A DNA stretch of 64,000 nucleotides from Acidobacteriota bacterium (lineage in GTDB: Bacteria; Acidobacteriota; Terriglobia; Terriglobales; Acidobacteriaceae): positions 1 to 64,000 of the forward strand of contig QIAN01000162.1 of assembly GCA_003225005.1 (NCBI GenBank), read 5' to 3'. The notes beneath the pieces were generated by a model. It made no database searches and was not told the origin of the DNA. It worked only from the letters and a program-made list of their open reading frames with translations. The translations under genes were made by a program, and so were the position numbers. How positions within the stretch are numbered: position 1 is the first letter of the stretch; every line of letters starts with the position of its first letter. Below are positions 72-11,910 of this stretch, in pieces.

Positions 72-1760
72 CTATTGGGTTCCCTCTACGATCTTGAGAT
101 AACGATTTACCTGCAGGTTTGAGAGCTTTTGCCGAGCGCCGCTGGGCCACAGGACCTCAACGCAAACCGCCTCCCCGTTGGAATGCCCCAGTCCCACCAG
201 CACTCGCTTGTCAGAAGACGAAATATAGCTCGAACCGCCCACAATCCACCGGACGAAATGCCGGGTCCCGGCGATCACGGTAACCTTGGCTCCGATCGCA
301 TCCCGGTTGCTTTTGGTTCCCTGGAGCTCGAAACCGACCCAACTGCTGTCCTGGCCGACGTTGTTTCGGAGTAATAACGGCGTTCCGTTCAACCTCGTGA
401 GACCTACATCGGGATCGCCGTCGTTGTCAAAATCTCCAACCGCGAGGCCACGCGCGATGTAACTCGAATTGAATTCGGGCCCACCTTCCTGTGCGGCATT
501 TCGCAACACTCCCTGGCCTTCGTTGTGTAGCAGCAGGGGAGGTTCCTGATATTTGACGTCTCCGCGAATCAGTTCAATCGACTGGTTGATGTGTCCGTTG
601 ACGATGATGAGATCGAGGTTCCCGTCGTTGTCGTAATCGAGGAACTTCGTTCCCCAGCCAACATCCGCTTTGGAAAATTGTGCCAGGTGAGAGGCAACAG
701 TTCGGTCCTGGTACGGCAAGGACGCAGAACCCATAAATAAAGAGTGATACTGGCCGTTGAAATTCGTGACTACAAGGTCCGGCATGCCGTCTCCATTTAC
801 GTCACCGACGTCTACGCCCATCCCTGCTTTGGCATTGCCATTCGCGTCATAGGCAACTTCCGCGTCGAGCGCGGCGTCTTGAACAGTCCCATCGCGCTTG
901 TTGATAAGCAGCAGATTTGGAGAGGCGTCGCGAGCTACAAATAGATCGGGCCAACCGTCGTCGTTGAAATCAATGGCTACCACTCCCATGCCCCGCCCAA
1001 CCATCTTGTCCAGTCCCGAGCGCGCACTGACATCGGTAAAGGTTCCGTCGCCTTTGTTGTGATAGAGCGTCAGCGGCATTCCCTTGTATGCCACTTGCGC
1101 GCAGTACGAGCGGACGCCATTCACTTCGCATTTTTTCGGCTGGTCAAAAGAAAACTCCGCGTAGTTGGTGACGATCAGATCGAGAAGACCGTCGCGATCG
1201 TAATCGAACCACGCCGCTCCTGCTGCCCACCTGCCAGAGTTTTTTACTCCGGCCCGAGCAGTAACGTTAGTGAACGTTCCGTCTCCATTGTTATGAAATA
1301 AAGCGCACTCCGGGTAGCCGGTGATGAAAAGATCGGGAAAGCCATCATTATCAAAATCAGCAACCGCGACGCCCATGCCATAAAAGTTCATGCGGTCAAC
1401 GCCGGCCTGCGCAGCAACATCCTGAAATTTTCCATTTCCAAGATTCCGATACAACGCGTTGCGAACCGGCGTCGGACTTTTACCGTTTGGCGTTTCACCA
1501 CCATTAACGAAGAAAATGTCTTGCCGGCCGTCGTGATCAAAATCCAGGAAGCCAACGCCTCCACCCATGGTTTCTATCAGAAAGCGATCAGAGGATTCGC
1601 CGGAAAAGTGGGTCCACGTGATGCCGCTTTCTCGCGCGACATCGGTGAAAACAGTCCTGGAGGCTACGCTTGACGATGTAGGCTGGCTGCCGCCAACCGC
1701 CGCGACGATGAATAAGAAAAGGGAAGCGATCCCGCAACGAAGAGCTGCCACGGAATGCAT
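72..1760 (-). CDS. Secreted FG-GAP/VCBS repeat protein with ASPIC/UnbV C-terminus (CRTAC1 type)
   Basis: 562-residue exported protein. The N-terminus has a signal peptide (hydrophobic run at about residues 10-25). At least seven calcium-binding-type repeats follow, each with a D-x-D/N-x-D-G core such as LDFDHDGRQD, ADFDNDGFPD, FDYDRDGLLD, IDFNDDGWPD, GDVNGDGMPD and GDFDNDGDPD; this is the FG-GAP/VCBS beta-propeller pattern. The last ~90 residues (around RDAIGAKVTV) fit the ASPIC/UnbV domain found in CRTAC1-like proteins. The substrate is unknown; family members are thought to be surface or periplasmic binding proteins. The ATG lies one base after the stop of the upstream TPR gene, so the two are almost certainly co-transcribed and translationally coupled. 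Family assignment is firm, function is not. Confidence 0.9.
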   Translation of the reverse strand: MHSVAALRCGIASLFLFIVAAVGGSQPTSSSVASRTVFTDVARESGITWTHFSGESSDRFLIETMGGGVGFLDFDHDGRQDIFFVNGGETPNGKSPTPVRNALYRNLGNGKFQDVAAQAGVDRMNFYGMGVAVADFDNDGFPDLFITGYPECALFHNNGDGTFTNVTARAGVKNSGRWAAGAAWFDYDRDGLLDLIVTNYAEFSFDQPKKCEVNGVRSYCAQVAYKGMPLTLYHNKGDGTFTDVSARSGLDKMVGRGMGVVAIDFNDDGWPDLFVARDASPNLLLINKRDGTVQDAALDAEVAYDANGNAKAGMGVDVGDVNGDGMPDLVVTNFNGQYHSLFMGSASLPYQDRTVASHLAQFSKADVGWGTKFLDYDNDGNLDLIIVNGHINQSIELIRGDVKYQEPPLLLHNEGQGVLRNAAQEGGPEFNSSYIARGLAVGDFDNDGDPDVGLTRLNGTPLLLRNNVGQDSSWVGFELQGTKSNRDAIGAKVTVIAGTRHFVRWIVGGSSYISSSDKRVLVGLGHSNGEAVCVEVLWPSGARQKLSNLQVNRYLKIVEGTQ

Positions 1761-4783: not shown

Positions 4784-5550
4784 GGCCACCTCACGGGTAT
4801 GCTGGCATCGTGCAGTTCACGCTTCAATTGTGCGATATTCTCCATGCCGAAGTGAAAAATGGACGCTGCCAGAGCCGCGTCAGCGCGACCATCGCGGAAC
4901 ACCTCGATGAAGTCGCGCGCTGAGCCTGCGCCCCCAGAGGCAATCACAGGAATCGAAACCGCTTCTGCCACCTCACGCACCAGCGCGCAGTCAAATCCGG
5001 ATTGCGTTCCGTCACGGTCCATCGAGGTCAGCAGTATTTCACCCGCTCCCCAGGCAGCCGCTTCCCGCGCCCACTGAATCGCCCCCCTGCTCGTGGGCAC
5101 GCGTCCGCCGGCGACGAACACTTCAAAACCTCGGTCGACTTCCCTGGCATCGATCGCCACTACAACTGATTGTGAACCAAAGCGTCGCGCGATCTCGCCG
5201 ATCAATGCGGGGTTGCGCACAGCCGCTGAGTTGATGGCAATCTTATCCGCGCCGGCATCGAAGACTGCTGCGGCATCCTGGAGTTGGCGAATTCCGCCTC
5301 CCACCGTAAACGGAACGAACAGCGAGCGCGCCGTGCTGCGGACCGCATCCAGCAGCGTGCGTCGGTTTCCGCTGGTCGCGGTGATATCGAGCAGCACGAT
5401 TTCATCCGCGCCGTCGCGAGCGTGGGCCGCGGCAGACTCCGACGGATCGCCGGCGTCGCGCAAATTGTTGAACCGCACGCCCTTCACCACGCGCCCACCA
5501 TCCATGTCCAGGCAGGCAATGATCCGCTTGGTCAACACCTCAGACCTCAC
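4777..5550 (-). CDS. hisF: Imidazole glycerol phosphate synthase, cyclase subunit
   Basis: 257 residues. With HisH it forms IGP synthase, which uses ammonia from glutamine to convert PRFAR to imidazole glycerol phosphate plus AICAR; the AICAR feeds purine synthesis (compare purH at 37990). The N-terminus [16 protein letters not shown] carries the first catalytic Asp, VVAIDARE carries the second, and phosphate loops are FTVGGGIRQ and [10 protein letters not shown]. Length is normal. It overlaps hisH by 11 bases and hisA by 7, consistent with coupled translation and stoichiometric assembly with HisH. Confidence 0.96.
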
Positions 5551-6130
5551 AGAAATTCTTCAGGATCGACAGTCCCACGTCTCCTGATTTCTCGGGATGG
5601 AATTGCACTCCGAAAATATTGCCGCGCTCGACGGCGCCGGCGAACCGCAGTCCGTATTCGCTAGCCGCCGTGGTTTCCGTCACGACGGGCGCATGAAAAG
5701 AATGGGTGTAGTACACAAATGAATCCTGTGCGATGCCCCGCAACAATCGTGATCCTTCTTGAACCGTCAGGGAATTCCAGCCGACATGCGGCGACTTCAC
5801 TGACGAAGGAAACTGCCGGCATCGGCCGGGAAAGACGCCTGCCCCCGCAACCTCGAGGCACTCTTCACTCCCTTCGAAAAGCCACTGCATTCCCAGGCAG
5901 ATTCCGAGAAACGGCTTGCCGGCGGAAGCGCTTTGCAGCAGGGCCTCGTCCAAACCCGTGGTGTTCAGAGCTCGCAGAGAGGAAAAATGTCCCACGCCGG
6001 GTAACACGATCTTGCTGGCCGCTGCCACGGTCCCAGGCTGGTCGGTCACGACAGCTTCGGCGCCTAGACAGTCGAACGCCTTCTTTACCGAATGCAGATT
6101 GCCCGCTCCGTAATCCACGATGGCGATCAT
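5540..6130 (-). CDS. hisH: Imidazole glycerol phosphate synthase, glutaminase subunit
   Basis: 196 residues, class I glutamine amidotransferase that supplies ammonia to HisF. The catalytic triad is visible: nucleophile Cys in [11 protein letters not shown] (about residue 80) and the His-Glu pair in [10 protein letters not shown] (about residue 180). The start ATG at 6130 begins [19 protein letters not shown], the usual HisH N-terminus. It shares ATGA with the stop of hisB (4-base overlap). The same frame stays open upstream to 6313, but that part is hisB antiphase sequence and is not HisH-like. Confidence 0.96.
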
Positions 6131-6714
6131 AGAAATCCTTTGGTAGACGGAAGCATACGGCCCAGGCGGCGGTCGCGGGAGCAGGCCACGCGCAAGGCTC
6201 GTGCGAAAGCCTTGAACAGAGCTTCGATCTTGTGGTGGCTGGAACGTCCGTAAAGCACACGGAGATGAACATTGGCGCGTGCGCCCCGGGCAAAGCCCTC
6301 GAAGAAATCGCACACCAATTCCACCTGCAGATCTCCCACTCGCGCCGAACGGACTCTGGTATCGACCACCGCCGCCGCGCGTCCTCCGAAATCGACGGCG
6401 GCGAGACCGAGAGTTTCATCCATGGGCATGACAAAGTAGCCGGCGCGCAGAATTCCGCGGCGATCTCCCAGCGCGCGGTCGAAGACCTCGCCCAGAGCAA
6501 TGCCGACGTCTTCGACCGTGTGGTGCTGGTCCACGTCCAGATCGCCTACTGCCGCGAGTTTCAGATCGAATCCGCCGTGTCGAGCAAAGAGCTCCAACAT
6601 GTGGTCGAGAAAACGGATTCCAGTGGAGACCTGGTACTTCCCGCGACCTTCAATCGTGAGCGCAACCCGAATCTCGGTTTCCGCGGTCTCGCGATGCAGC
6701 TTGGCTTTCCTCAC
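6127..6714 (-). CDS. hisB: Imidazoleglycerol-phosphate dehydratase
   Basis: 195 residues, the monofunctional form without the N-terminal phosphatase domain found in enterobacteria. It dehydrates imidazole glycerol phosphate to imidazole acetol phosphate using two manganese ions. The duplicated metal-binding signatures are clear: [28 protein letters not shown] near residue 65, and the C-terminal [17 protein letters not shown]. Histidinol-phosphate phosphatase must be a separate gene outside the window. It overlaps hisC by 4 bases (ATGA) and hisH by 4 bases. Confidence 0.96.
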
Positions 6715-7787
6715 ACCCTCACCTCGGGGCGTTTATTGATGGTCTCGATCACGCCGCGCAGTGCGTCAATCAGAGTGCGCATATCTTCGCCGGATCCCAC
6801 GGTCAGGCGCACGCAGCCTTCACATCCTGGATCGGAATTTCTGTCCCGCACCAGGATTCCGCGTGTGCGCAAAGCTTGAATGAATTCCGTATGGGCAGGG
6901 CCGACGCGCACCAGCACAAAGTTGGCCCGGCTCGACCAGTACTCGAGGCCAAGAGTTCGGAGTTCCCGCTCCAATAGTCCGCGGCCGTGCTGCACCTCGG
7001 CGACGTAGTTTTTAACGTACTCCTGATCGCGCAGCGCCTCGGGCAACACAGCCAGTGCGACCGCGTTCACGTTGTAGGGCGAAGTGGAGCGCCGCACCAT
7101 CGCCATCTGTACAGAATCCCCGGCGAGGATGCCGAGGCGAAGACCAGCCAAACCGTAGGCCTTCGAGAAGGTTCGCGCCACGAAAAGATTCGACGGCCGC
7201 CCAGGATGGTTAAGGATGGTCTCCTGGTGAAACTCAAAGTAAGCTTCGTCCACCAAAACCGCCGCCTGCGGCGCCGCCCGAGCGACCTGGAGCAGAATGT
7301 CGCAAGCCACCGCCACTCCCGTTGGGTTGTTCGGATTTGCCACGGCGATGAGCCTTGTGCGTTCGCTGATCCGGGAGAGCACTTCTTCTAAAGGAAAAGC
7401 GAAATTCTCACCTGAGAGAACCTGCACCAGGCGAGCGCCTTCAGCCTGAGCGAAGATGGCATACATGGCAAACGTCGGCACCACGATGATGGCGTCGTCG
7501 CCGGGCTCAAGATAGGTGGAGCAAAGCAGATGAATCGCCTCATCCCCCCCGTTGGTCAGCAGAACCTGAGCCGCATCGAGTCCGAGAAAATCGCCCACCT
7601 CGCTTTCCAGCGGTTCACGCTCGGGATAGCGTGCCAATGTTTCGGCGTCGAGCGAGCGCAGTTGTGCTAACACCCGGGGCGAGCAGCCAATGGTGCTCTC
7701 GTTGAAATCGAGACGCAGTCCTTGACGCCCCGCCAGCGGCGGCCGGTAAGCATGCAACTTCTTCACTGCCTCGCGCGCCTCAAGCAT
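6711..7787 (-). CDS. hisC: Histidinol-phosphate aminotransferase
   Basis: 358 residues, fold-type I PLP aminotransferase converting imidazole acetol phosphate and glutamate to histidinol phosphate and 2-oxoglutarate. Visible features: [11 protein letters not shown] near residue 80 (cofactor phosphate contacts), [10 protein letters not shown] around residue 155, the DEAYFEF segment, and the PLP lysine in [16 protein letters not shown] near residue 215. Length is normal. It overlaps hisD by 8 bases and hisB by 4. The position inside the his operon makes HisC more likely than a general aromatic aminotransferase. Confidence 0.95.
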
Positions 7788-9033
7788 TTGAGCACCTCAC
7801 CCGTAACGATTCCGCGTGGGCGCGCAATCCCTCGGCCTCGGCCAGCGCAATGGCAGGTGGTGCAATGTGCCGAATTCCCTCGCGCGAAACTTCCTGGCAA
7901 GAAATGACGCGGAGGAAATCCAGAACACTCAGTCCGCCCCGCACACGCGCCATCGCTCCGGTCGGCAACACATGATTGGGACCCGAGATGTAATCCCCAG
8001 CGGACTGGGGCGTGAACGCGTTCAGAAAAATCGATCCCGCATTTCGAACTGCCGGTGCCAGAGCGGATGGCAGCGTGAGATGCTCGGGCGCAATGCGGTT
8101 CGCGGTTTCGACCGCTTCCTCCAGAGAAGGAACCAAAAGGATGGCCCCGCGACGAGTCAGTGACTCAGCGGCAATGGGATTTGTATTGGTGCGCCGCCGC
8201 ACTTCCGTCTGCACAGCCTTGGCTAATTCATGCGAACTGGTAATCAAGATGCAGAGTGCATCGGGATCATGCTCCGCCTGCGCTACCAGGTCACACGCGA
8301 TGAGAACCGGCTCACCCTTATCGCTGATGAACACGGCTTCCGTAGGACCAGCGAGGAATTCAATGGCACAATCGAACGCAACTAGTTTCTTGGCTGCCGT
8401 CACGTATCGGTTGCCCGGACCGACGATCTTATCCACGCGAGGAATGCTCTCCGTTCCATAGGCTAGCGCCGCGACGGCGTGTGCTCCGCCCACACGGTAG
8501 AACTCGCGCACACCGAGAAACGCCGCAGCCGCCAAAGTCGCCTGCGCCGGACGCGGTGAGACCACGCGAATCTGCGGCACGCCCGCGACCTGGGCGGGAA
8601 TCACCGTCATCAGCAAGGTCGAAAGCAAGGGATATCGCCCTCCGGGCACATAGCAGCCCACCGATTCCAGAGGGCGTACCAGTTGCCCCACGCAAACTCC
8701 AGGCTGAATCTCGCGCCGCCACTCCTCTGGTTTCTGCCACGCGCAGTAGCGGCGAATGTTTGCCGCCGCCTGCGTGATGGCCTCCCGTAACCCTGCAGAA
8801 GTTCTCCGCCAGGCTTCTTGCGCATCAGCGTCAGGCACGAGCACAGGCTCGCTTCGTTCCAGACCATCCCAACGAGCCGCGTAACTCCGTAAAGCCCGAT
8901 CGCCGTTGCGGCGAACATTGTTCACAATGCGCCGCACCATCGGCTCAAGCTCCGCTAGATCGGTCGCACCACGCTGTTCGAGCGCCTGCATGCATCGATC
9001 CTTATTACGCCCGTCAAGAATCCGAATGCGCAT
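7780..9033 (-). CDS. hisD: Histidinol dehydrogenase
   Basis: 417 residues, a zinc enzyme that carries out the last two steps, histidinol to histidine with two NAD+. Signatures: VDKIVGPGNRYVTAAK near residue 200, the substrate loop EFLAGPTEAVFIS, AEHDPDALCIL, RIAPEHLTL with catalytic Glu-His, and the metal region GDYISGPNHVLPTG. Length is near the usual 430. The ATG shares its A with the TAA stop of hisG (TAATG), typical of translational coupling. Confidence 0.96.
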   Translation of the reverse strand: MRIRILDGRNKDRCMQALEQRGATDLAELEPMVRRIVNNVRRNGDRALRSYAARWDGLERSEPVLVPDADAQEAWRRTSAGLREAITQAAANIRRYCAWQKPEEWRREIQPGVCVGQLVRPLESVGCYVPGGRYPLLSTLLMTVIPAQVAGVPQIRVVSPRPAQATLAAAAFLGVREFYRVGGAHAVAALAYGTESIPRVDKIVGPGNRYVTAAKKLVAFDCAIEFLAGPTEAVFISDKGEPVLIACDLVAQAEHDPDALCILITSSHELAKAVQTEVRRRTNTNPIAAESLTRRGAILLVPSLEEAVETANRIAPEHLTLPSALAPAVRNAGSIFLNAFTPQSAGDYISGPNHVLPTGAMARVRGGLSVLDFLRVISCQEVSREGIRHIAPPAIALAEAEGLRAHAESLRVRCSNA

Positions 9034-9902
9034 TACATCACCACCTTATTCAGCGGATACTCGACGATTCCCTGGGCATTCGCCTGCTTAAGCTTCGGAA
9101 TGAGCGACCAGGCGGTTTGTTCTTCGATCACGGTATTGACCGCCACCCATTCGCCATCGGCCAACGGCGCGACAGTCGGATTTTTCAACGCGGGCAGCAG
9201 GCCGAGAACTGCCGCTAGATGTGGTTTTCGCACGTTGAGCATCAGGCCCACCCTGCCCTCGGCGGCCATCGCTCCACAGAGCATCACAGACAGATTTTCA
9301 ATCCTGCGATGCCGCTCGGGATCGGCCCAGGCTTTCTGGTTCGCCACCAGTTGCGTGTTCGACTCCAGCACCGTCTCGATAATTCTCAAATGATTGGCGC
9401 GCAGCGAACTCCCGGTCTCAGTGACTTCGACAATCGCATCCGCCAGCAGCGGCGGCTTCACCTCCGTCGCGCCCCAGGAGAACTCAACCCGCACCGGAAC
9501 CTTCTGGCTGGCAAAGTAGTTTCGCGTGACCGTGACCAGCTCGGTGGCGACGATCCGGCCTTCCAGGTCTTCGGGTTTCTGGAAGTTCGAATCCTCCGGC
9601 ACGGCCAGCACCCACTTCACTTTTCCCATGCTCTGTTTGGCATAGATCAGGTCGGCGACGCTGACCACCTCGAGCCCGCTTTCCAACACCCAGTCGAGAC
9701 CGGTCAGGCCCGCATCCAGCGCACCGTGTTCGACATATCTCGCCATTTCTTGCGCACGAATGAGCAAGCAGTCGATCTCCGGATCATCGGTCGCCGCGAA
9801 GTACGAGCGCGGGTTGGTGTAGACGCGCAGCCCGGCGCGGGTGAACAAGCTAAGCGTCGCTTCCTGCAAACTTCCCTTGGGAATGCCCAGTCGAAGTTTC
9901 AT
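9033..9902 (-). CDS. hisG: ATP phosphoribosyltransferase (long form)
   Basis: Committed step of histidine synthesis: ATP plus PRPP to phosphoribosyl-ATP. About 289 residues, the long form with a C-terminal ACT-like regulatory domain (HisG_C, last ~75 residues), so it should be feedback-inhibited by histidine without HisZ. The N-terminus [20 protein letters not shown] is standard; [10 protein letters not shown] and the PRPP loop region [10 protein letters not shown] are visible. Start ATG at 9902 shares ATGA with the stop of hisI. The frame is open to 10319, but the upstream part is hisI antiphase sequence and I exclude it. Confidence 0.95.
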
Positions 9903-10252
9903 CGCCGCGCCTTCTCTTCCGCCAGGGCGTTGCCCAGTGGCAGTTCCTGGGTGAAGCAGGATCGCGATCCGGTATGGCAAACCTTGCCTGCGCCTAAAAC
10001 TCGAACGCGCAGCAACACCGTGTCGCGGTCGCAGTCCGTCCACGCCGCCACCACCTCGAGGCGATTGCCGGAGGTTTCTCCCTTGGTCCAAAGGGTCTGC
10101 CGGGTGCGGCTGTAAAACGTGACGAAGCAAGTTCGCAAAGTCGTCTCCAGTGCATCGAGATTCATGAAGCCCACCATGAGCAGTTCCCCGGTGGCCGCAT
10201 CCTGAATCACCGCGGGAGCCAAGCCGTGCATTTTGTCGAAGTCGATCTCCAT
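9899..10252 (-). CDS. hisI: Phosphoribosyl-AMP cyclohydrolase
   Basis: 117 residues, zinc and magnesium enzyme that opens the adenine ring of phosphoribosyl-AMP. Conserved features: [19 protein letters not shown] with the substrate strand, the metal motif [13 protein letters not shown] around residue 75, and the zinc-ligand motif CHTGSRSCF near residue 95. It contains only the cyclohydrolase domain; there is no fused HisE domain and no hisE gene elsewhere in the window. First structural gene of the operon, about 45 bases after the 3' end of the intron remnant. Confidence 0.95.
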
Positions 10253-10336
10253 CGAAACCTCCTTCTTCTAACCATTCCCCATGCGCCCGCGACAGAATCG
10301 GCATAGGGGGGAGAGTCACCTCTCCTCCCCTGCCAC

Positions 10337-10369
10337 ACCACCGGACATGCGGGTCCGCATCCGGCGGTT
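10337..10369 (-). ncRNA. Group II intron domain V hairpin (domain VI at 10301-10330)
   Basis: Minus-strand reading gives a 33-nt stem-loop: lower stem AACCGCCGGAT/GTCCGGTGGT, a two-base bulge, and upper stem TGCGGACCCGCA. This is the familiar domain V layout, including a CGC catalytic-triad candidate in the lower stem. Domain VI follows as GGGGAGGAGAGGTGACTCTC-type stem at 10301-10330 with an unpaired A candidate seven bases from the intron end. Domain V is thus intact by eye even though the intron is gutted. Confidence 0.75.
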
Positions 10370-10381
10370 CGGCGGATTAAG

Positions 10382-10582
10382 CTAGGACCGTATGACCATG
10401 GCCGGGAGTCCAAGAGAGTCGAAGTAGGCATTGGGTAACGCAAGGCTCAGGGCCGGCGAGTTCGCGATTCGCCACGGGCCGTGCGCACTGCCGGCGGTTT
10501 GCGCCGCCAGGTCTTTGCCCACACCCCGTTTACGGAGTTCTTTGAATCGCGTCCGTCCCCGTTTCCATTGCTTCCACACCAG
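10382..10582 (-). pseudogene. C-terminal fragment of group II intron reverse transcriptase/maturase
   Basis: The minus strand encodes WKQWKRGRTRFKELRKRGV followed by HGPWRIANSPALSLALPNAY and ends FDSLGLPAM-VIRS at a TAG (10382). This is the typical maturase (domain X) C-terminus of bacterial group II intron proteins. No reverse transcriptase domains (the YADD motif and others) are present; sequence upstream of about 10582 is domain I-like RNA sequence, so the junction marks a large internal deletion. It has no start signals and is not expected to make a working protein. Confidence 0.85.
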
Positions 10583-10804
10583 TGGACTTGATGGATATGG
10601 GCTTCGCAATCAGTTGCTCGCTCGCCCGCCACCGTAGGCCTCACATCCGGTTCTTGTTCATCGGCTCGCGCCTTTGCTCCACGCTTCTTTCAGGCCCCGC
10701 CTCGCGGCGAGTGTTATTTCACCCTTGCGCTTTGCTAACCCTTCACCTCCATCAGGGTGGGTAGAGGACTTGCACCTCCTGGCTGTTGAACATGCTCGGC
10801 ACAC

Positions 10805-10841
10805 AACAAAAAGCCCGCTGCGCGGTTTGCGTCAGCGGGCT
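10805..10841 (-). terminator. his operon attenuator terminator
   Basis: Minus-strand hairpin with 9-bp stem AGCCCGCTG/CAGCGGGCT (10841-10833 with 10820-10812), an inner CGC/GCG pairing, and a following TTTTTGTT run. It sits 28 bases after the stop of the histidine-rich leader peptide and before hisI, where an attenuator should be. A competing antiterminator is possible between leader bases around 10881-10895 (GCGTGTCGGCGGA) and the 5' arm around 10829-10845, but I could not fold it. The intron 5' end follows the T-run directly. Confidence 0.82.
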
Positions 10842-10868
10842 GGATTTCCTATAAAAGCTTTTAGGCTA

Positions 10869-10943
10869 TCATCCGTACTCCTCCGCCGACACGCTCATCG
10901 CGCGATGATGATGGTGGTGACGGTGGTAGTTCGATGAAATCAT
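10869..10943 (-). CDS. hisL: Histidine-rich his operon leader peptide
   Basis: 24-codon reading frame on the minus strand, ATG at 10943 and TGA at 10869. Residues 7-13 are HRHHHHH, six His codons (CAC, CAC, CAC, CAT, CAT, CAT) with one Arg between; the rest begins MISSNY and ends SAEEYG. It is followed after 28 bases by a strong terminator hairpin and then the his structural genes. This matches the known logic of histidine attenuation: stalling at His codons when charged tRNA-His is scarce prevents terminator formation. The ribosome site is weak (no clear GGAGG; an in-frame TAA lies just upstream), so the exact start is less sure than the His run. Not previously obvious because of its size. 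Confidence 0.83.
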   Translation of the reverse strand: MISSNYHRHHHHHRAMSVSAEEYG

Positions 10944-11226
10944 AACCAGTTTTTGATGTTAGGACGGTCAGCATCTCTCCGTCAATCGAATTCCACATAC
11001 TCACCGTGGTTCAAATCGAGAACTCCGTAAGGCGTCGATTGGCTGCCGGCTGAACGCAGCTCAGCCTGGAGCAGGGAACTCATATTAAAGAAATCACTTA
11101 GCTTTTTTGGGACATTCGTCCTGCGGAGGTGAGTATCGCAAACCTGAATTTGTCCGATCGCTTCTTTGCGTGTGCCGGTGGGTTGCAAATAGCAGGGGGA
11201 ACGTTCCGTTGCTACCAGCGCTTTGT
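10944..11226. other. Intergenic region upstream of his leader, probable his promoter
   Basis: 283 bases between the end of hypB and the his leader. The his promoter should lie here, but I could not settle on -35/-10 hexamers. A 68-codon minus-strand frame (10982-11188), ending LDLNHGEYVEFD, is open, but it has no recognised relatives or good ribosome site; it could be a small gene trailing hypB or chance. No convincing terminator for the hyp operon is visible. Confidence 0.4.
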
Positions 11227-11910
11227 TTAGACTGCAACTGCCCCGCGCAATTCGTCCAAGCGCGCCCTGAGGAAGTTCAAGTACTCTTCCATTCCATCGG
11301 CCGTCTTGGCGGAGAGCTTTAAGACCTGCATGCCTGGGCGTATGGCCTGGATGTTGCCGTACGCGGAATGCCAGTCGAACTCAACCGCTTGCGCCAGGTC
11401 CATTTTCGTGACGACCGCCAAGTCCGCACTATTGAATATTGTAGGGTACTTCAGCGGCTTATCCTCGCCCTCCGTCACTGAGATGAGCACCAGTCGAAGA
11501 TGCTCACCGAGATCATAGGACGAAGGACAAACCAGGTTCCCCACGTTTTCGATGAAGAGAAAATCCAGATCATTGAGATCCCATTCCTCGAGCGCGTTCT
11601 GGACCATCGCGGCCTCAAGGTGACATAGCGTGCCGGTGGTGATTTGTTTGACGGGAGCCTGGCTCCGCGCCAGTCGGACTGCATCGTTTTCCGTGGCGAG
11701 ATCTCCAACCAGCGCGGCTACACGGTAACTTTGGCGAAGCAGCGTGAGGGTTTTCTCCAACAACAGGGTCTTGCCCGAGCCGGGACTTGATACCAGGCTG
11801 ACGACATAGACTCCCGCAGTTCGGAACTGCTCGCGAAGCGCATGAGCGGTCAGATCATTCTGCTTTAGAACGTTCTTCCTGACTTCGACTAAACGGGGTT
11901 GTGAGCCCAT
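11227..11910 (-). CDS. hypB: Hydrogenase nickel incorporation GTPase HypB
   Basis: About 227 residues from ATG at 11910 (MGSQPRLVEV). GTPase that with HypA inserts nickel into the [NiFe]-hydrogenase large subunit. P-loop SSPGSGKT around residue 42; the metal site Cys-His in TGTLCHLEAA; FIENVGNLVCPSSYDLGE with switch II and a second Cys; base-recognition motif TKMDL near residue 165. It lacks the N-terminal CxxCGC and His-rich nickel-storage segments of some HypB proteins, as in short HypB forms. It overlaps the hypA stop by 22 bases and is the last gene of the hyp operon. Confidence 0.95.
   Translation of the reverse strand: MGSQPRLVEVRKNVLKQNDLTAHALREQFRTAGVYVVSLVSSPGSGKTLLLEKTLTLLRQSYRVAALVGDLATENDAVRLARSQAPVKQITTGTLCHLEAAMVQNALEEWDLNDLDFLFIENVGNLVCPSSYDLGEHLRLVLISVTEGEDKPLKYPTIFNSADLAVVTKMDLAQAVEFDWHSAYGNIQAIRPGMQVLKLSAKTADGMEEYLNFLRARLDELRGAVAV

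Follow-up and report, generated by a model that had tools for sequence, protein, structure and literature searches.

A predicted histidine attenuator ahead of the his operon in Acidobacteriota, with a group II intron directly behind its terminator

The his operon of an Acidobacteriota bacterium (GenBank assembly GCA_003225005.1) is very probably preceded by a ribosome-mediated transcription attenuator. By all comparative signs, the mechanism itself is one that is already known, and the DNA studied here appears to add two twists to it: a leader mRNA that is probably leaderless and, in this genome, an intron lodged in the switch. The window analysed is a stretch of 64,000 nucleotides (contig QIAN01000162.1, positions 1 to 64,000). 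A preliminary description, made from the letters of the window alone, had proposed the attenuation layout, and this proposal is now supported by the conservation of leader, terminator, and antiterminator and by their linkage to his genes.

The genome comprises 7.9 Mb in 550 contigs; judged by HisI, its closest named relatives are metagenome-assembled genomes of Acidobacteriaceae and Terriglobia, labelled mostly palsa, bog, or fen, in keeping with the guess of a probable acidobacterium in the preliminary description. Along the minus strand follow, in order, a hypA-like gene, hypB, leader, terminator, intron, hisI, hisG, hisD, hisC, hisB, and hisH, and the operon was read as far as hisH (six his genes). 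The hypB gene, encoded on the leader's strand with its end at 11227, matches TIGR00073 above the cut-off; the hypA-like gene scores 76.1 bits against TIGR00100, below the cut-off of 88.1. The features in the direction of transcription are as follows.

10956..10985, minus strand: putative sigma-70-like promoter, -35 box TTGACG (10985-10980), 18-nt spacer, -10 box TAACAT (10961-10956); from a scan and relatives
10869..10943, minus strand: leader peptide ORF of 24 codons, MISSNYHRHHHHHRAMSVSAEEYG, ATG at 10943, stop at 10871-10869; from sequence
10905..10925, minus strand: regulatory codons 7-13, CAC CGT CAC CAC CAT CAT CAT, six His in seven; from sequence
10883..10894, minus strand: segment 2, predicted 5' strand of the antiterminator, GCGTGTCGGCGG, in the leader ORF past the His run; from folding, third codon positions 0.97
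10829..10838, minus strand: segment 3, 5' arm of the terminator, CCGCTGACGC, with segment 2 as its alternative partner; from folding
10805..10841, minus strand: intrinsic terminator, hairpin AGCCCGCTGACGCAAACCGCGCAGCGGGCT (10841-10812) and U-tract (10811-10805); fold-based finder, -22.8 kcal/mol
10297..10804, minus strand: group II intron of 508 nt that encodes no protein of its own, immediately past the U-tract; from Rfam, intron copies, and empty sites
10253..10296, minus strand: 3' exon with the hisI Shine-Dalgarno sequence AAGGAGG; from sequence
9899..10252, minus strand: hisI, phosphoribosyl-AMP cyclohydrolase, first gene of the operon; NF000768 130.9 bits, cut-off 126
9036..9902, minus strand: hisG; TIGR00070 and TIGR03455 above cut-off
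7780..9033, minus strand: hisD; TIGR00069 above cut-off
6711..7787, minus strand: hisC; TIGR01141 above cut-off
6127..6714, minus strand: hisB; NF002111 above cut-off
5540..6133, minus strand: hisH; TIGR01855 above cut-off

The leader frame stands as first described, with 24 codons between the ATG at 10943 and the stop at 10871-10869 and six His in codons 7-13. It is the sole ORF of at most 60 amino acids in the 64-kb window that has at least five His in eight codons; 20 Markov-simulated windows combined gave one such ORF and none with at least six. The RNA of this leader folds more stably than its own shuffles (z -2.97). Among 28 aligned leaders, column homogeneity (the sum of squared base frequencies) in four His columns is 0.98 at the first two codon positions and 0.58 at the third, CAC and CAT being swapped freely. 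In the stretch that directly follows the run, AGCGTGTCGGCGG, it is the third positions that are most homogeneous (0.97, against 0.85 at positions 1-2). Thus, the run appears to be kept for decoding and the next stretch for its bases, and by this comparison the latter is conserved as RNA. The number and spacing of His codons differ between leaders. In one relative (L055, 936-1065), the run is greatly expanded, to about 20 His around an N, through growth of the repeat or through an error of assembly.

The strong terminator with a T-run that had been noted behind the leader is present at 10841-10805; its hairpin starts 27 nt past the leader stop codon, and not 28. Because its stem is bulged, a simple terminator scan leaves it off its list, while the fold-based finder reports it. 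The his genes do follow, with hisI at the head of the operon, but not directly: the intron (10804-10297) lies between the terminator and the start of hisI at 10252. The same description leaves out this intron, and also the probably leaderless start and the wide occurrence of the leader in relatives. A hairpin of -16 kcal/mol or stronger, followed by a T-rich tail, is found in 76 of 80 distinct leaders, the window's own included. In the other four (L026, L131, L135, and L136, the last two from family f17), the fold-based finder detected no convincing terminator; control may be translational in these cases, or another terminator may be used.

Can the terminator be dismantled by an upstream partner? 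The alternative antiterminator was a matter of inference in the preliminary description, and mutually exclusive folds have now been computed. In the model of the stalled state, which uses assumed ribosome footprints, a ribosome occupies the run's first His codon and RNA has been made as far as the terminator loop. Under these assumptions, mean pairing of the terminator 5' arm with upstream RNA is 0.77 in the stalled state, 0.17 once the ribosome has reached the stop codon, and 0.56 when the intervening segment is shuffled; the corresponding values for the window's own arm are 0.77, 0.25, and 0.63. The antiterminator is better than its own shuffles in 69 of 76 leaders. It is no better in the remaining seven (L016, L017, L019, L023, L024, L052, and L115), of which L016, L017, L019, and L023 are similar to each other in sequence; in L017, L019, and L023 the minimum-energy fold contains no upstream partner. 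At least six bases of the terminator arm are paired in both structures in 71 of 76 leaders. An upstream partner exists in 73, and in all but one of these (72) it begins within the leader ORF. By computation with the assumed footprints, then, pairing of segment 2 with segment 3 is predicted to exclude the terminator and to be gated by the position of the ribosome.

We infer the following course of events, in which the transcription start, the ribosome positions, and the response to starvation are predictions. RNA polymerase would start from the promoter (10985-10956) and make a transcript that is leaderless, or nearly so, with a ribosome loading on or close to its 5' end. When His-tRNA is plentiful, the ribosome would pass the His codons, reach the stop codon, and cover much of segment 2 (10894-10883); segment 3 (10838-10829) would then pair with the 3' arm of the terminator, and transcription would end at about 10805. 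When His-tRNA is scarce, the ribosome would stall in the His run and leave segment 2 free. Pairing of segment 2 with segment 3 would prevent the terminator from forming, and hisIGDCBH would be transcribed. As the intron of this genome stands behind the terminator, its RNA would be made only in read-through transcripts.

The absence of the His run or hairpin from close relatives had been named beforehand as the observation that would count against this reading; the comparison shows no such absence. A His-rich leader was found ahead of hisI at 84 loci, including the window's own, of which 80 are distinct, the locus sets having four identical loci in common. HisI is present in 28 of 41 genomes (the window's own and 40 relatives), and 27 of the 29 loci L009-L037, the window's among them, have the leader. 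The exceptions are L022, with only 11 nt of upstream DNA, and L031, where the 269 nt available hold other sequence ahead of hisI and no leader. Among named Acidobacteria and Terriglobia (L039-L056), 17 of 18 loci have it, the exception being L041 with 69 nt upstream.

How far does the leader extend within the phylum? The PRA-CH domain was detected in 155 of 247 genomes of a phylum sample. All 40 hisI upstream regions L100-L139, from nine acidobacterial families (f1, f5, f17, f26, f35, f46, f48, f60, and f64), contain a leader with at least four His in eight codons; these were hand-picked from about 155 places, 20 from the home family and the others mostly for short HisI frames. At 50 loci of other families (L070-L099 and L140-L159), no His leader was found directly before hisI. 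In 18 regions of such families, of about 20 kb each, hisI is preceded by other his genes in 14 and stands apart from them in four (L162, L163, L164, and L174). Five of the 18 have a His-rich leader 136-405 nt before hisG (L172, L173, L177, and L179) or hisD (L169), and L166 has one 1.1 kb before hisG; in the other 12, the detector used found no leader near his genes. Thus, where it is found, the leader tracks the first his gene of the operon, whether this is hisI, hisG, or hisD. As controls, leaders were found at none of 12 Bacteroidales HisI loci, and the same detection applied to the reverse strand gave leaders at 2 of 121 loci.

A covariance model (R1), built from 28 home-genus leaders including that of the window, where it locates the element at exactly 10943-10805, gives a further view of this linkage. 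The family is represented by 60 genomes, 43 of them with hisG; R1 matches at E<=1e-6 occur in 39 of these 43 and in none of the 17 genomes without hisG (best match there E 2.9e-5), although the search of this set, more than 40 genomes, used stricter filters by which weak matches may have been lost. The association has a Fisher p of 1.5e-11, uncorrected for relatedness. In 38 of the 39 cases the match is on the same contig and strand as hisG, 350-909 nt upstream of it. Outside the home genus, and therefore outside the training set, 37 of 41 hisG-bearing family genomes are matched. R1 misses two divergent leaders that have terminators (MQLHRHHSHTHHIATGVSEALPNHP in G303 and MSRSYHHDLHHLHELHACGQP in G329), and in two further genomes (G328 and G336) the contig edge is reached. 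In the genus, which is largely the training set, the 18 genomes with hisG among 31 are the same 18 that have R1 matches at E<=1.2e-22, and no match in the other 13 is better than E 0.005. These comparisons argue for a conserved link of the leader to the his operon.

Four weak R1 matches were set aside. No leader is seen at L272 (G014), which ends in an ordinary terminator, and L273 (G326) has none either. L274 (G295) is a Thr/Met/Ile leader ahead of an aspartate kinase gene. L271 (G018; 366-531, minus strand) appears to be a relic of leader and terminator without the His run or hisI, and an intact copy is found elsewhere in that genome. Separately, 13 of the 31 genus genomes (for example G001, G003, G005, and G007) and 17 of the 60 family genomes show no hisG, some of them 98-100% complete; these organisms may be histidine auxotrophs, or may use another pathway.

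Where does transcription of the leader start? The promoter site of the window is weak on its own, since the scan found one site where shuffles gave 0.5. By comparison, 65 of 80 distinct leaders have a promoter of the form TTGAC...TAnnnT that scores at least 8 of 12, with the end of the -10 box 6-10 nt from the leader start, compared with only 0-2 of 79-80 leaders at eight shifted offsets. With the search limited to 3-16 nt ahead of the start codon, the best -10 box lies 6-10 nt from it in 72 of 80 leaders and 12-16 nt in seven, and is absent in one; L010 and L052 have an in-frame GTG at 9 nt. The gap in the window is 12 nt, above the usual 6-10. Transcription usually begins 6-9 nt past the -10 box, so a box 6-10 nt ahead of the start codon would make the mRNA leaderless or nearly so. 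No Shine-Dalgarno sequence was seen ahead of the leader start in the window, and Shine-Dalgarno-like words precede only 2 of 80 leader starts. For hisI, a rough count gives 44 of 70 starts with one (some of these starts, such as those of L010 and L011, are misassigned, which does not affect the count for leaders). The leader mRNA is thus probably leaderless or nearly so, with a predicted 5' end.

Most of the DNA between terminator and hisI is a group II intron. Domains 1-4 match RF02001 above the cut-off (76.1 bits, 10711-10545), and domains 5-6 match RF00029 at 39.6 bits with E 3.7e-6 (10369-10297). Intron matches occur at eight other places in the genome; in five of them (L002, L003, L005, L006, and L007) the alignment reaches the 5' end of the intron, and all five lie directly behind a terminator-like hairpin; these and the intron of the window are copies of one kind. 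The 3' end, taken from the empty site of relatives (the junction of TTTTTGTT and TCTGTCGC in L012 and L013), coincides with the end of the Rfam match. By its insertion site, the intron is IIC-like: it has inserted immediately past the terminator, a position typical of IIC introns. At all 83 other leader loci, the leader stop and the HisI match are separated by 58-227 nt, which leaves no room for a 508-nt intron. The genome holds 17 group II reverse-transcriptase matches or pieces.

Other explanations of the leader and hairpin have been weighed. It is hardly credible that the hairpin terminates the upstream hyp genes and that the His codons are there by chance. With hypB upstream on the same strand, a terminator would be expected at this place; however, no hypB match was found at the loci of 48 relatives (L010-L056 and the fragment L069; flanks of up to 1.5-3 kb, some cut by contig ends), 43 of which have the leader. 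In addition, the His codons are kept while their third positions are free, and in 65 of 80 leaders the promoter stands directly at the leader; both count against this explanation. The same 48 loci bear on the proposal that the frame encodes a His-rich micropeptide that binds nickel or zinc, and not a sensor of His-tRNA. The peptide is indeed rich in His, and in this genome it lies downstream of hypB and a hypA-like gene (the latter under its cut-off). Its linkage, however, is to his genes, its His residues differ in number and spacing between leaders, and the region past the run is conserved as RNA, so that this proposal too must be judged extremely improbable. Translational attenuation, in which alternative structures mask the ribosome-binding site of hisI, is highly unlikely, if a little less so: the four leaders without a clear terminator would suit it, whereas the other 76 have the hairpin and T-rich tail, and the hisI Shine-Dalgarno sequence of the window is separated from the hairpin by more than 500 nt, on the far side of the intron.

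A more serious doubt concerns the intron, which could quite possibly, although on balance not probably, be a dead remnant that is perhaps already harmful to his expression. It has no reverse-transcriptase gene, its domain 5-6 match falls just below the Rfam cut-off of 40 bits, and the 325-amino-acid reverse transcriptase of the related copy L003 looks shortened, its family match stopping at position 247 of 353. Against this, both domain matches cover their whole models (1-170 of 170 and 1-77 of 77), the six his genes examined all match their families, and four of the reverse-transcriptase matches in the genome are above the family cut-off, one of them over positions 2-352 of 353.

A tentative reading, rather unlikely as a whole, joins three proposals. 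The attenuator's terminator stem would double as the stem-loop that a IIC intron uses for recognition of its 5' splice site and for DNA homing. The pairing of segments 2 and 3 during starvation would allow the intron to be transcribed and yet dismantle this stem. Histidine starvation would thereby switch on transcription of the intron, while splicing would be delayed until the leader refolds, with splicing and antitermination competing for one segment. If this is true, a mobile ribozyme has come under the control of an amino-acid switch. The intron within the attenuator is also a natural experiment, a mobile element living in a regulatory RNA.

Are other leaders of this kind present in the phylum? 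Of the 24 loci L280-L303, three have Thr/Met/Ile-rich leaders (e.g., MRSLIQSTGRTMTMTTMAMRITALLEEGAG) with terminators ahead of an aspartate kinase gene, namely L280 (the same place as L274, where the kinase matches TIGR00657 above the cut-off), L282, and L293; they are candidate threonine-type attenuators. Before trpE and ilvB of relatives (17 loci each, first 1.7 kb per locus), a crude detector found no Trp-rich or Ile/Leu/Val-rich short ORFs; trpE and ilvB are possibly not the first genes of their operons. The Rfam His_leader family RF00514 has no match to the element, either at the gathering cut-off or at E<=10. Thr_leader (17.6 bits, E 1.5) and Trp_leader (15.6 bits, E 3.8) matches are below threshold, and an anti-hemB match (23.8 of 49.5 bits, E 0.0037) was dropped as far under its cut-off.

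According to the 2010 survey PMC2965389, almost no predicted Acidobacteriota attenuators have an associated function. The main text of PMC5900883, a comparative genomics study of the phylum, contains none of the terms 'histidine', 'attenuat', 'leader peptide', or 'auxotroph'. Among the matches listed for the open-access literature (PMC4833913 and PMC1262725 were also consulted), none describes a his attenuator in Acidobacteriota; since the coverage is mainly of open-access papers, priority is not proven. With this element, the range of ribosome-mediated attenuation of his genes would come to include Acidobacteriota, a phylum dominant in soil. The covariance model and simple sequence rules can now be used to annotate such leaders, and the family, which has cultured members, offers a setting in which a leaderless leader peptide could be tested.

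How does this element compare with known systems? The hisL leader of enterobacteria (Rfam RF00514) has a short leader ORF with a His run, a terminator, and an exclusive antiterminator. The present element resembles it in its run of His codons in a short ORF, the terminator before the his genes, and the predicted exclusive antiterminator. In contrast to hisL, it appears to have a single short antiterminator helix that overlaps the leader ORF, a probably leaderless start, the gene order hisIGDCBH, and an intron behind the terminator. The hisL features are described in passages of PMC9413887, which place His attenuators in Proteobacteria and three lineages of Firmicutes. The Firmicutes leaders of that study are a parallel in that a His-rich leader, terminator, and antiterminator were recognised by comparison in a phylum other than Proteobacteria; the same passages make no mention of a leaderless start or an intron. 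PMC7298713 describes a leaderless leader in Sinorhizobium meliloti, whose trpL attenuator RNA starts with the leader peptide's own ATG. That 5' end is known, whereas the one proposed here is predicted, and trpL differs in having Trp codons and in belonging to an alphaproteobacterium. Finally, according to PMC7161350 and PMC12350094, group IIC introns lie behind terminators, and the stem-loop helps to define the 5' splice site; a position behind terminators is reportedly also a subject of Robart et al. 2007. The intron of the window resembles them in its position directly behind a terminator hairpin and T-run. It differs from those cases in having no protein gene and in that its terminator would be a regulated attenuator, with an alternative partner for the hairpin.
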